Shown here: one piece after another, positions 25,160 through 33,770 of the stretch | How the letters are laid out: each line of letters opens with the position of its first letter | How positions within the stretch are numbered: position 1 is the first letter of the stretch | Assembly (NCBI GenBank): GCA_003153375.1 | Contig: PLYM01000141.1 | Coordinates: 1 to 35,904 of the forward strand | Source: Planctomycetaceae bacterium | Lineage (GTDB): Bacteria > Planctomycetota > Planctomycetia > Pirellulales > PALSA-1355 | Reading direction: 5' to 3' | Length of the DNA stretch: 35,904 nucleotides | Position numbers and translations under genes: made by a program | The notes under the pieces: model-generated | The model's database searches: none | The model's input: the letters and a program-made list of their open reading frames with translations, nothing else | Told to the model about the DNA's origin: nothing

Positions 25160-26242
25160 ATGATGAAGGGCGAAGTCGTTTATCTGTATGCCTTCGACGT
25201 GGCCAACGAGATCGCCACGGACAAAGTCCAGGATATCCTGGCCAGCAAGCCTTTCCCGTTCGAGATCCAGACGCCGCGCACGTTTCCCAAGGACGTGCCA
25301 CTCTATCGCCCTCTGGCCATCCAGCCGCCGGCGCTGACCTCGCCCCTCGGGGGCCGGCCGGTACGCCTCCTGGTGCGCGTTTACGACGTGGGCGTGGTAT
25401 CGATCACGATGCGCGTCGATTGCGAAGTGGCGAGCCTGGCCGACCTGCACGCTCGGCATCGCGCCGTGCTCGACAACGGCGTGTCGCTCGACCGCGTGGC
25501 TCGCGACGTCTGCGCCGAAGTCTGCAAGAGTCTGGCCGATGTGCTGGTCGACACGTCCGCGGCATCCGAGCCCGAGGCCTACACCGTCTTTTGCCTGACC
25601 GACCTCGACGGCCAGCAGGAAACGAGCGCGTGGCTGGCGGCCAACCGGCCGGCGGTGGCCGAACTGCTCACCGAGGCCCGGCCAGGAACTCTCAGTGAAA
25701 TGCAAGTGGCCGATTCGCTGCGCATTGCCCGGTCATACAATCGCACCGACCTGATCGTCATCGATTGGGACGCGGCTCTGGCAGTTGACCTGAGCGGCTA
25801 CATGGACGACGTGCTCTATGTGATCGAGCTGGCAAACCTGCAATTGGAAGAGTATCGCGTGATGGACCGGCGGCTCGACCGGCACTTGGATCGGGCGTAC
25901 GAAGATCTCAAGCAGCGCCGCTTTGGCTGGTTGGGAACTTACTCCAGGACGCTCAGCACGCTGAGGCTGTTTCGCGTCGACGTCACCAAGCTCAATGACG
26001 AGGTCACCCACATCAGCAAGTTCTTTGGCGACTGGTATCTCGCCCGGGTTTATCTCGGCGCGTTTGAGCGGTTTTACCTGAATCAATGGCGGCAAAGCGT
26101 CGAAAACCGCCTGGGCCAACTGGACGAGCTTTACAGCGTGGTCAATGGAGACATCAACAACCGCCGCATGGTGCTGTTGGAAGTGATCGTCGTCGTCTTC
26201 TTCGCGATCGATTTGCTGTTGCTGATGTTCTTCAAGCGTTGA
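25160..26242 (+). CDS. C-terminally membrane-anchored protein, DUF155/RMD1-like
   Basis: A 360-aa protein. No N-terminal signal; the only membrane segment is at the extreme C-terminus (VLLEVIVVVFFAIDLLLLMF), so it is probably tail-anchored in the inner membrane facing the cytoplasm. The helical region before it (YMDDVLYVIELANLQLEEYR, RRLDRHLDRAYEDLKQR, WRQSVENRLGQLDELYSVVN) followed by NRRMVLLEVIVV resembles the C-terminal part of DUF155/RMD1-like proteins, where a helical bundle precedes an LE-type membrane helix. The N-terminal part (VVYLYAFDVANEIATDKVQD) is only weakly similar. Function is unknown. It converges on the amidohydrolase pair with a 7-bp gap. Confidence 0.65.
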   Translation: MMKGEVVYLYAFDVANEIATDKVQDILASKPFPFEIQTPRTFPKDVPLYRPLAIQPPALTSPLGGRPVRLLVRVYDVGVVSITMRVDCEVASLADLHARHRAVLDNGVSLDRVARDVCAEVCKSLADVLVDTSAASEPEAYTVFCLTDLDGQQETSAWLAANRPAVAELLTEARPGTLSEMQVADSLRIARSYNRTDLIVIDWDAALAVDLSGYMDDVLYVIELANLQLEEYRVMDRRLDRHLDRAYEDLKQRRFGWLGTYSRTLSTLRLFRVDVTKLNDEVTHISKFFGDWYLARVYLGAFERFYLNQWRQSVENRLGQLDELYSVVNGDINNRRMVLLEVIVVVFFAIDLLLLMFFKR

Positions 26243-26249
26243 TCGCAAC

Positions 26250-27614
26250 TTAATGCGGTCCCTCGCTGACTACGCGGCCCTGAATTACGCAGCCCGTGCA
26301 GTGCGAGGTGTACTCGAATGGGTCGCCGTCGTAGAGCGCGATGTCGCCGTCCTTGCCGACTTCCAGCGAGCCGACCCGCTCGGCGATGCCGAGAATTCGG
26401 GCCGCGTCGATCGTGATCGTGCGCAGTGCCTGGTCGAACGTGAGCCCGTTGGCCGCGGCGATGGCCGCCTCGAACAGCACCAGCCGGGTCTTGGGAACAT
26501 AGGCCTCGTAACCGCTTTGCAGGGCCACGGGGATCTTGGCCGCGACCAGCTTGGCGGCCGTGTCGAAGCTCTGATTCTCGCGCTCGCCGATCGCCCGCGC
26601 CATCGGCGGATGCAGGATCACCGGTACGCCGGCCGCCTTGATGTCATCAATCAACAGATAGGCTTCGCTGGCTCCATCGAGCCAGATCTTGATGTCAAAT
26701 TCCTTGGCCAGCCGCAGCGCGCTGGAAACATCCTGCGCCCGATTGGTCGTGATCATTAGCGGCAGCTCGCCCGCGAGCACCCGGCCCAGCGCTTCCATCC
26801 GCAGATCGCGCGAAGGCTTATCGGCAGCTTTCTCGCTTGGCTTCTCGTCCTTCTTGTCAGCCGCTGGATCAGCTGTCTTATCTGGATTTTTGTCGGATGG
26901 CTTATCGATCGCCTTGTCCGCGGGTTTCTCAGCGGCTTTGTCGCCCGCCTTCTCATTCGCCGCGGCACGGCGGTGCTTGTCTTGATACTCGCGGGCTTTG
27001 ATCAGCTCAGCCCGCAACATGGCCATCGTTTTGCCGCGCGTGCCCGGCGACTTGGAACCGGTTTTCTGTGCCGCGGGGCCGATCGTGGCCGCCACGGCCC
27101 GAGCTTCGACGATCACCGCGTCGGCAACCGTGCGGCCGCTGGTCTTGGCGACCAGTGTCTGGCCCGACATCAGCTCACCGGGAGCGTGCCCGGCATGAAT
27201 CGTGGTGACGCCGAAGCCTCGAATCCACTCGATCAAGTCTTCCTGCGAGTTGTAGGCGTCGATCGCCCGCAACTCGGGCTGAATCGGCGAGGAATGTTCG
27301 AGCTGATCTTGATCGTGGTCGTGATTCAAGATGCCCGAGAAACCGACCGTGCTGTGGGCGTCGATCAGACCCGGCGTGACCACGTTGGCCTCGAGCACGC
27401 GAAAGCCCTGCGGCACCGCGATTTGTCCGGCCTGACCGATGGCTGAAATCTTGCCGTCCTGAATCACGATCATGCCATCGCTGATTGTGGCGCCGGCCAT
27501 GGTGTGAATAGTTTTGCCATGCACGGCGACTTGGGCTTGGGCCGTCGAGGGGAAGAGGGCAAGCAGTGCGAGAAGGAGGCCGGCGTACGGCATGCTCAGC
27601 GTGAGCTTGATCAT
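26250..27614 (-). CDS. Amidohydrolase-superfamily paralogue with eroded metal site, exported
   Basis: A 454-aa protein with a signal peptide (LLLALLALFPSTAQAQ). Overall it is an imidazolonepropionase/prolidase-like amidohydrolase: VVTPGLIDAHSTVGFSG, TPGTRGK-like SKSPGTRGKTMAMLRAELIK, and the C-terminal ARILGIAERVGSLEVGKDGD. Compared with its neighbour at 27611 the metal ligands are missing: DAHST instead of DTHSH, LMITTNRAQD instead of IIHHHTHRHD, WLDGASEA instead of VLHHVSDG, and ALQSGYE instead of AFHTDD. A charged Lys/Asp/Pro/Ala insertion with repeating xDKxxDKP units lies at about residues 216-267. Its ATG overlaps the stop of the neighbour (ATGA), so the two are co-translated. It is probably a non-catalytic partner; this is inference. 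Confidence 0.82.
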   Translation of the reverse strand: MIKLTLSMPYAGLLLALLALFPSTAQAQVAVHGKTIHTMAGATISDGMIVIQDGKISAIGQAGQIAVPQGFRVLEANVVTPGLIDAHSTVGFSGILNHDHDQDQLEHSSPIQPELRAIDAYNSQEDLIEWIRGFGVTTIHAGHAPGELMSGQTLVAKTSGRTVADAVIVEARAVAATIGPAAQKTGSKSPGTRGKTMAMLRAELIKAREYQDKHRRAAANEKAGDKAAEKPADKAIDKPSDKNPDKTADPAADKKDEKPSEKAADKPSRDLRMEALGRVLAGELPLMITTNRAQDVSSALRLAKEFDIKIWLDGASEAYLLIDDIKAAGVPVILHPPMARAIGERENQSFDTAAKLVAAKIPVALQSGYEAYVPKTRLVLFEAAIAAANGLTFDQALRTITIDAARILGIAERVGSLEVGKDGDIALYDGDPFEYTSHCTGCVIQGRVVSEGPH

Positions 27615-28948
27615 TTGGCGGCTCCGGTGTCGGCGTTTTCGAAGCAGCAGAGATAGGGGGCCTGGTCGTGACCAGCGCCGTAACCGCCGATGGCGTAAAG
27701 ATAATCGGTCGGATCGGTGCGATCGAAGACCTTCACTCCTTCGACCCAGGTTTCCAGTGTCTTGGCATAGACGCTCAGCGGATCCGCGTCGAGGATCGTG
27801 AAATCGGCGTCTTTGCCGGGCGTCAGCGAACCGATGCGGTCCTCGAGCCCCAGCATCTTGGCCCCCGAGATCGTCAAAGCCTTGAGGGCTGCCTCACGCG
27901 ACATGCCAGCCCGCACGGCCAACGCGGCACTGCGGCGAAACAGCCGCGAATCGGTGATCCAATCGTCGGTATGAAACGCGGTCAGCACGCCGGCTTTCTC
28001 CAGCACGCCGCCCGTCTTGAAGGAAGAATCCCGAGCTTCGAGCTTGCCTCCGGGCGAGTCGATCACGATTACCGAGCAAGCCACACGGGCCTTGGCAATC
28101 TCGTCGGCGACCTTCCAGCCGTCGCTGACGTGGTGCAGCACGACCTTCAGCCCAAATTCCTGGGCCAGTCGTAGCACGGTGATGATGTCGTCGTGGCGGT
28201 GTGTGTGATGGTGGATGATTCGCTTGCCTTGCAGTGACTCGACCAGCGCCTCGAGATTCAGATCGCGTGGCGGCAACTTGGCGGCATCGCCGGCTGCTCG
28301 GGCGACCTTGTCTTGATACTCGCGGGCCTTGATGTATTGTTCGCGCACCAGGAACGCGCTCTTACCCCGCGTGCCGGGAAACGGTGGCTCGTGCATCGAG
28401 TTGGTGCCGTTGGCCATTTTCAACCCGCCGAGCGGAGCGCCCCCGGCGTCGGCGATGAAAAAGTCGTCGATCTTCTTGGGCTTGGGATGGGCCAGTCGCA
28501 GCTTGACATAGATCGTTTGGCCGCTGATCAAATGGCCCGAGCCGGGCATGATGTTGAGCGTCGTCAACCCGCCGGCGGCCGCCCGTTTGAATCCCGAATC
28601 GAGCACGTTGATCGAATCGTAAATCCGCACGCCCGGCTGAATCGGCCCGCTGCCGTCGGCGCCACCCAAACTTCCGCTGCCGCCGATGTGGCTATGCGTG
28701 TCGACCAGCCCCGGCATGATCACGCGTCCCGCGACGTCGATCTTGTTGGCGCCCAGCGGAATGGGCACATGCTCGTCTGGTCCAATTGCCGTGATCTTGC
28801 CTTTTTCGACGACCAAGGTGCCCTGGGGAATTTCATCGCCGTCAACGCGAATGATGCGCGCGCCAACGAACGCCAGCGGCCGGTCCTGCGCCATCGCCGT
28901 CACGGCTGACACCATCAGGCAGCTCGCCAGAAAAACGCCAATCCGCAT
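27611..28948 (-). CDS. Exported metal-dependent amidohydrolase
   Basis: A 445-aa amidohydrolase with signal peptide (MRIGVFLASCLMVSAVTAMA). The HxH metal motif is in MPGLVDTHSHIGGSG; further ligand-type histidines are in IIHHHTHRHDDI and VVLHHVSDG, and the catalytic-type aspartate region is AFHTDDWITDS. The C-terminal MLGLEDRIGSLTPGKDADF is the usual composite-domain motif. Substrate (a cyclic amide, dipeptide or similar) is unknown. The frame is open to 29059, but the ATG at 28948 begins the signal peptide and has AGAGG about 9 bp upstream. A promoter candidate lies at 29016-29044. The 3' end overlaps the start of the degenerate paralogue by 4 bp. Confidence 0.87.
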   Translation of the reverse strand: MRIGVFLASCLMVSAVTAMAQDRPLAFVGARIIRVDGDEIPQGTLVVEKGKITAIGPDEHVPIPLGANKIDVAGRVIMPGLVDTHSHIGGSGSLGGADGSGPIQPGVRIYDSINVLDSGFKRAAAGGLTTLNIMPGSGHLISGQTIYVKLRLAHPKPKKIDDFFIADAGGAPLGGLKMANGTNSMHEPPFPGTRGKSAFLVREQYIKAREYQDKVARAAGDAAKLPPRDLNLEALVESLQGKRIIHHHTHRHDDIITVLRLAQEFGLKVVLHHVSDGWKVADEIAKARVACSVIVIDSPGGKLEARDSSFKTGGVLEKAGVLTAFHTDDWITDSRLFRRSAALAVRAGMSREAALKALTISGAKMLGLEDRIGSLTPGKDADFTILDADPLSVYAKTLETWVEGVKVFDRTDPTDYLYAIGGYGAGHDQAPYLCCFENADTGAAK

Positions 28949-29112: not shown

Positions 29113-30579
29113 CTACGCCACGACTTCTTTCACCACGTGCCCGGCAACGTCAGTCAGACGGAAGTTGCGGCCGTTGGAGCGGTAGGTAAGCTTTTCGTGG
29201 TCGATGCCCAACAAGTGCAAGATCGTGGCGTGCAGGTCGTTGATACTCACGCGGTCGGTCACGGCCTTGTGGCCGATTTCGTCGGTGGCGCCGTAATGGA
29301 CGCCTCCCTTGACGCCGCCGCCGGCCAGCCAGGTCGTGAAGGCGTGCGGATTGTGGTCGCGCCCCGTGCCCCCCTTCTGCACGATGGGCAGCCGGCCAAA
29401 TTCGCCATTCCACACCACGAGCGTGCTCTCGAGCAGCCCGCGCTCGTGCAAGTCGTTGAGCAAGGCGCCGATGGGAATGTCCGTCTCGCCGGCGAATTGA
29501 CGATGATTCTGCTCGATGTTCGCGTGGCCATCCCAACTGCGCTCGTTTTCCATGCCGCCGCTATAGATCTGCACGAAGCGCACGCCCCGCTCGACCAGAC
29601 GCCGCGCCGTGAGCACCTGCTTGGCAAAGTGCGCGCACTTGGGATTGTCGATGCCATACAGCTCGCGAATCGCCTTCGGCTCGCGGTCGATATCGAGCGC
29701 CTCGGGCGCGGCCATTTGCATCCGATAGGCCAGCTCGAAACTTTCGATCCGCGCTGCCAGGTCGGCTTCGCCGGCTTCTGGGTGGTGCTTGTTCAGCTTG
29801 CGCAGCAGTTCGAGCTGCGCCAACTGTTCGGCGTCGCTCAATCCTTCGCGGCGAAAAAGGTTATTGATCGGAGCGCCTTGGGCATTGAGCGCGGTGCCCT
29901 GGAACACGCCGGGCAGGAAGCCGGCGCCCCAGTTTTGGGCGTGGCCCTTGGGCAGCCCGCGACCGAGCGTGTCGTACATCGTGATGAAGCCGGGCAAGTT
30001 TTGATTCTCGGTGCCCAGGCCGTAGGTTACCCACGCGCCCATGCAGGGAAAGCCCATGCGGCTCATGCCGGTGTTGATTTCGAACAGGGCTGGCGAGTGG
30101 TTGTTCGTTTGCGTATAGCACGAGTGCAGGAATGCCATCCGATCGACGTGCTCACCCATCTTCGGAAAGATTTCCGAGACCCAGGCTCCCGACTGGCCCT
30201 GCCGGGCGAATTTGAAAGGCGACTTCATCAACGGCCCAACCTGCTCGGTGAAGAAGCCCGTGTTCTTGTCGAAACCGGTCAGATCCTGGCCGTCGCGCTT
30301 CTCCAACTCGGGCTTATAGTCCCAGGTATCGACCTGGCTGGGACCGCCGTTCATGAACAGCCAGATCACGCTCTTTGCCTTGGCCAAAAAATGCGCCGGC
30401 CGAGGCGCCATGGGGTTCAATCGCACGTCGCCGGCCAGCGCATCCCTCTCCAGCAAGCCTTGCTGCTCCAACATCGCCGCCAACGCCACCAGTCCGCAGC
30501 CGCTGCCGGCCCGCCGCAAAAAATCGCGGCGCGAAGCATAGGTCGAGGAAGGCGAAGCGAACAGATGAGGATGGTTCAT
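29113..30579 (-). CDS. DUF1501 family protein, Tat-exported (copy 2)
   Basis: A 488-aa DUF1501 protein with a twin-arginine signal (SRRDFLRRAGSGCGLVALAA). Conserved features are VIWLFMNGGPSQVDTWDYKP, VVWNGEFGRLP, GRDHNPHAFTTWLAGGGVKG and the C-terminal YRSNGRNFRLTDVAG. The frame can be extended to a GTG at 30621, but the ATG at 30579 places the Tat motif at a normal distance. It lies 50 bp downstream of the PSCyt gene at 30630 and should form a transcription unit with it. The surrounding gene order repeats that of copy 1 (2898-6927) but without a lyase gene downstream. Catalytic activity of the family is not known. Confidence 0.88.
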   Translation of the reverse strand: MNHPHLFASPSSTYASRRDFLRRAGSGCGLVALAAMLEQQGLLERDALAGDVRLNPMAPRPAHFLAKAKSVIWLFMNGGPSQVDTWDYKPELEKRDGQDLTGFDKNTGFFTEQVGPLMKSPFKFARQGQSGAWVSEIFPKMGEHVDRMAFLHSCYTQTNNHSPALFEINTGMSRMGFPCMGAWVTYGLGTENQNLPGFITMYDTLGRGLPKGHAQNWGAGFLPGVFQGTALNAQGAPINNLFRREGLSDAEQLAQLELLRKLNKHHPEAGEADLAARIESFELAYRMQMAAPEALDIDREPKAIRELYGIDNPKCAHFAKQVLTARRLVERGVRFVQIYSGGMENERSWDGHANIEQNHRQFAGETDIPIGALLNDLHERGLLESTLVVWNGEFGRLPIVQKGGTGRDHNPHAFTTWLAGGGVKGGVHYGATDEIGHKAVTDRVSINDLHATILHLLGIDHEKLTYRSNGRNFRLTDVAGHVVKEVVA

Positions 30580-30629
30580 GTTGGTGCTCGTGGGACGGAG
30601 TGTTTTCCGGCCGTCAATCACTTCGGCTT

Positions 30630-33770
<3,141 letters not shown>

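Follow-up and report, generated by a model that had tools for sequence, protein, structure and literature searches.

Two described systems come closest to the locus analyzed here, one in mechanism and the other in fold. Specifically, the Trypanosoma prozyme is a dead paralog whose heterodimerization with S-adenosylmethionine decarboxylase (AdoMetDC) relieves autoinhibition, and, being a dead paralog maintained as the partner of an active enzyme, it is the nearest mechanistic precedent (PMC5201418, PMC6221367). It is a eukaryotic system of the AdoMetDC family with proven biochemistry, whereas the pair here is bacterial and known from sequence. The nearest precedent in fold comes from Pseudomonas aeruginosa, in which an inactive dihydroorotase homolog is needed for ATCase activity (PMC7053772). 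The likeness lies in an inactive chain of amidohydrolase fold serving as a partner, and the difference in the protein partnered, which is ATCase in that system and an active amidohydrolase paralog here. The ATCase-pseudo-dihydroorotase system was rejected as an identity for the locus, the adjacent gene being the amidohydrolase paralog and not ATCase, with no further conserved neighbor. Neither a heterodimer of an amidohydrolase with a pseudoenzyme nor a tandem pair of this kind in Planctomycetes turned up in our search of the literature, which was of partial coverage, and the pair described below, which is bacterial, apparently exported, and very widespread, is apparently undescribed in the literature searched.

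A tandem pair of amidohydrolase paralogs

The window, that is, the whole stretch of 35,904 nucleotides of Planctomycetaceae DNA analyzed, contains the one pair of its source genome, with the gene for an amidohydrolase that retains its metal ligands (hereafter, live) upstream of that for a degenerate paralog (dead) on the minus strand (Table 1). An earlier note had described two genes that overlap by ATGA and share an architecture, and both points held, in that the reading frames and their overlap lie where tabulated and the products are full-length paralogs with 30% identity (E 6e-48, single comparison) that have the same closest structure in the PDB, the Thermotoga maritima amidohydrolase 3ooq. 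Both proteins were above the Pfam cut-off for Amidohydro_1/Amidohydro_3 (PF01979/PF07969), and both have the amidohydrolase superfamily fold (TIM barrel plus beta-sandwich), based on Pfam and on the comparison of the dead-copy model with 3ooq. Among the matches listed, no NCBIfam model reached its cut-off for either protein. Profile similarity of both to HutI and other named amidohydrolases was weak and far below cut-offs, and imidazolonepropionase HutI (TIGR01224) was rejected as an identity, at 54.7 and 56.4 bits for the two proteins against a curated cut-off of 298.15. The HSH, H, H, and D of 3ooq match the ligands of the live copy and do not align with the replacements in the dead copy. 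We take the locus name of 3ooq to be TM0814, under which no paper was found in the literature.

Table 1. Positions in the window of the two genes and of the residues discussed in the text.
Feature	Position	Strand	Remarks
Live amidohydrolase, 445 aa	27611..28948	-	Signal-like hydrophobic N-terminal segment; Pfam Amidohydro_1/3; 3ooq E 1.3e-53
Dead paralog (pseudo-amidohydrolase), 454 aa	26250..27614	-	Own signal-like segment; Pfam Amidohydro_1/3 (C-terminal part); 3ooq E 5.8e-34
ATGA overlap, live stop/dead start	27611..27614	-	Commonest spacing among homologous pairs
Live H85-S-H87, strand-1 metal ligands	28688..28696	-	His at both columns in 97/97
Live H248, strand-5 ligand	28205..28207	-	His in 98/98 live, 0/108 dead
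Live H273, strand-6 ligand	28130..28132	-	His in 98/98 live, 0/108 dead
Live D328, strand-8 ligand	27965..27967	-	Asp in 98/98 live; column is E370 in 108/108 dead
Dead H87-S-T89, replaces HxH	27348..27356	-	Second His absent in 108/108 dead
Dead H140 and H143, end of strand 2	27186..27197	-	Live N132, P135; H140 in 100/103, H143 in 102/103
Dead T289, replaces strand-5 His	26748..26750	-	Thr in 100/108
Dead D313-G314, replaces strand-6 HH	26673..26678	-	D313 in 101/108; G or S at 314 in 100/108
Dead H335, M338, R340, after strand 7	26595..26612	-	Live D297 at R340; H335 in 103/103, R340 in 103/103
Dead Q366-SGYEAYVPKTRL block, replaces HTDDWITDSRL	26481..26519	-	E370, Y372, V373, P374, K375 invariant

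Several other features of the region were observed. Upstream of the pair on the same strand (window 29113-33770) are a DUF1501 protein and a PSCyt1/PSCyt2(DUF1549)/PSD1(DUF1553) protein (Pfam), and a convergent 360-aa ORF at 25160-26242 has a hydrophobic segment at its C-terminus and is without a Pfam or NCBIfam match. A GGYGxG...CC motif ends many live copies (e.g., window 27611-27690), and several of the fusions described below end in CCLxF although the dead single proteins have no such ending. Additionally, residues ~220-268 of the window's dead protein (26811..26957, minus strand) form a Lys/Ala/Asp-rich low-complexity insert of low pLDDT, which is of variable length or absent in relatives (mostly gaps).

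Ligand loss, selection, and age of the pair

What is generally known of the superfamily, together with the alignment to 3ooq, leads us to take the columns of H85, H87, H248, H273, and D328 as the metal ligands. Across Planctomycetota and Acidobacteriota, the residues in these columns were counted in 98 live and 108 dead proteins. The ligand set of a metal-dependent hydrolase (HxH, strand-5 His, strand-6 His, and strand-8 Asp) was complete in the live proteins (97-98 of 98, gaps aside), and four of the five ligands were lost in every one of the 108 dead homologs. When the window's own dead protein is aligned with 3ooq and the live copy, its ligand columns hold H87, T89, T289, G314, and, at strand 8, Q366-SGYE. 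All four of the substitutions that had been quoted from this sequence were indeed present (DAHST for DTHSH, TTNRAQD for HHHTHRHD, DGASEA for HHVSDG, and QSGYE for HTDD). The accompanying statement that every metal ligand is gone was right for four of the five and wrong for the first His of HxH, which the window's copy keeps as H87 and 75 of the 108 dead homologs likewise have. The E370-x-YVPK motif was present also in those fused C-terminal halves that are nearest to the unfused dead clade.

Chance does not account for the ligand loss, because each of the 108 homologs checked shows these losses, and on the evidence of these alignments the loss is ancient. In close pairs, dN/dS (Nei-Gojobori) was 0.06-0.26 for the dead and 0.06-0.21 for the live copy, several of the estimates being rough, with a synonymous distance near or above 1, and the unsaturated pairs agreeing with them. 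The degenerate copy is thus under purifying selection, with dN/dS about as low as that of its partner. A recent decay of a duplicated amidohydrolase into a pseudogene would fit the missing ligands of the window's copy, but the same loss is seen in every homolog across two phyla, the frames are intact, and dN/dS is well below 1. This explanation, refuted by the orthologue alignment together with dN/dS, has a negligible probability. Selection for a pseudoenzyme, which the earlier note had proposed might act as a heteromeric partner or a regulator, was instead supported by a loss that is universal and ancient among orthologous pairs (108 dead, 98 live) and by the low dN/dS of the dead copy. The AlphaFold2 model of the dead protein (pLDDT 86.2, pTM 0.85) superimposed on 3ooq with a Z of 50.5 and an rmsd of 2.0 A over 379 residues; the dead copy is predicted to keep an intact, 3ooq-like fold.

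Among 146 genomes of the order (Pirellulales), many dead homologs were recovered that adjoin a live gene. With the dead alignment as query, at least 577 relatives were recovered from named genomes in Planctomycetota and Acidobacteriota, with one MAG labelled Alphaproteobacteria also among them, from which the best-scoring 80 were kept as a biased sample. In a tree of 80 copies, all the live, N-half, and upstream copies fell to the same side of a fully supported (100%) branch, and the 26 adjacent dead copies formed one group on one side of another branch. One duplication followed by ligand loss in one branch would be the simplest reading of this unrooted topology. Barring transfer, the pair dates back at least to the split between the sampled Planctomycetota and Acidobacteriota copies.

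Gene order and natural fusions

Wherever the sequence extended far enough upstream (77 loci), the gene directly upstream of the dead one, on the same strand, was in every case the live gene, and the remaining three of the 80 stopped at a contig edge. The census of the 146 Pirellulales genomes, which is less biased than the set of 80 best-scoring relatives, found the live gene in 27 and the dead gene in 29, with all 27 common to both; in the two dead-only genomes (G050 and G064) the reading frame runs to the contig end. The spacing of -4 (ATGA), an overlap of the type associated with translational coupling, was the commonest, being found in 29 of the scored pairs (L065-L144) and in most of a set of 20 pairs. 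Among the neighboring ORFs around the pairs, no third gene or wider operon was conserved, and therefore the pair itself is the unit. Gene order, ligand counts, dN/dS, and the census together show that selection has kept the dead paralog alongside the active gene.

The two copies were also found fused into one protein in several families (genomes G015, G077, G092, G096, G004, G165, G296, G158, and G187). These fusions encode 851-948 aa (stop-to-stop frames), with the live half N-terminal and the dead half C-terminal. More distant fusions (L181, L182, and L184) have the same live-then-dead order, preceded in L182 and L184 by an extra dead domain. The latter two proteins (L182 1154-5653 and L184 4776-9257) are ~1500 aa long and comprise three amidohydrolase domains, of which the second keeps the ligands and the first and third are without them. 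At L063 2917-15439 (G125:C84), ~8 amidohydrolase-like ORFs follow one another in tandem on the same strand, the majority of them lacking HxH, and clusters of matches in G529:C1 (~1382920-1395419) and G530:C1 (~480885-493192) resemble it.

A signal-like N-terminus was present in 77 of 93 live and 99 of 103 dead proteins and in none of the fusion linkers, as would be expected if the two halves were exported together in a single chain. From these hydrophobic N-termini only, we infer that both proteins are probably exported. Modeling of the fusion L175 (855 aa) with AlphaFold2, from an alignment of 12 rows that held fusions only, gave a pLDDT of 78.8 and a pTM of 0.80. The relative placement of the halves is probably predicted with some confidence, because randomly placed halves would be expected nearer 0.5. 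A Foldseek search with this model returned matches to single domains only and nothing on the interface.

The natural fusions and the pTM of the fusion model bear only indirectly on a putative physical contact between the live and dead proteins and on any effect that it may have on activity. Operon pairing and fusion can also arise from a shared pathway without binding. Two proteins of the same pathway or compartment that are co-translated for dosage and form no stable complex would look identical in operon arrangement and co-occurrence alone. We consider such an arrangement improbable here, given the fusions in several families, the fairly confident two-domain model, and a dead copy that is without recognizable catalytic apparatus of its own kind.

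The barrel mouth of the dead copy and the reading of the pair

New residues are near-invariant in the dead proteins at H140, H143, T289, H335, R340, Q366, E370, Y372, P374, and K375, with H140, H143, H335, and E370 conserved at 97-100% among 103 of them. A total of 43 positions were at least 95% conserved in the dead copies and different or variable in the live ones. These positions were enriched just past the C-termini of the barrel strands, as located by DSSP on the model and by our own reading of the barrel, with an odds ratio of 4.1-4.5 (p ~1e-4) without the post hoc block and of 5.5 when the range included that already-seen block. In the alignments, the barrel mouth of the dead copy is recoded and not eroded, and its conserved residues suggest that the dead copy may have a ligand or activity of its own. 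The earlier note had held that alternative His/Asp ligands in the degenerate copy would speak against a pseudoenzyme, an objection that is answered only in part, since conserved His and Glu residues that are new in the dead copy do lie at its barrel mouth.

Along these lines, the dead copy might have been repurposed, with H140, H143, D313, H335, R340, Q366, E370, and K375 binding a ligand or another metal, as a sensor, substrate carrier, or new enzyme of the same pathway. Both the enrichment of the 43 positions at strand C-termini and the strong conservation of H140, H143, H335, and E370 favor this explanation, but in the fused C-terminal halves the three His are kept inconsistently (H143 is not shared, and H140 and H335 are shared only partly) whereas deadness and partnership are kept, and such a pocket is equally compatible with a heteromer. 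We regard repurposing as unlikely. What all forms have in common is that their metal ligands are lost and that they are partnered with a live copy; the His set is specific to the unfused clade, in which it could be a new site. Only tentatively do we entertain that the dead barrel mouth was rebuilt as a new ligand or metal site, which would turn the pair into an exported hydrolase equipped, by way of its own paralog, with an integral sensor or a second active site, and kept in at least two phyla.

The reading we favor, at a probability of about two in three, is that the pair is one functional unit, in which an exported amidohydrolase and its catalytically dead paralog form an obligate heteromer. 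In such a unit, the live subunit would hold the metal centre and carry out hydrolysis, while the dead subunit would keep the whole fold, with its metal site replaced by other conserved residues. The dead subunit would most likely stabilize, complete, or regulate the live one, by analogy with the action of prozyme on AdoMetDC.

Family profiles name the dead proteins as amidohydrolases, which is misleading about their activity. The enzyme-pseudoenzyme paralog pairs with proven activation found in our literature search are eukaryotic, whereas the present pair is bacterial. Hundreds of genomes carry it, some as two genes and others as a natural fusion, and this variety offers ample natural material for studying how an enzyme grows dependent on its dead copy.
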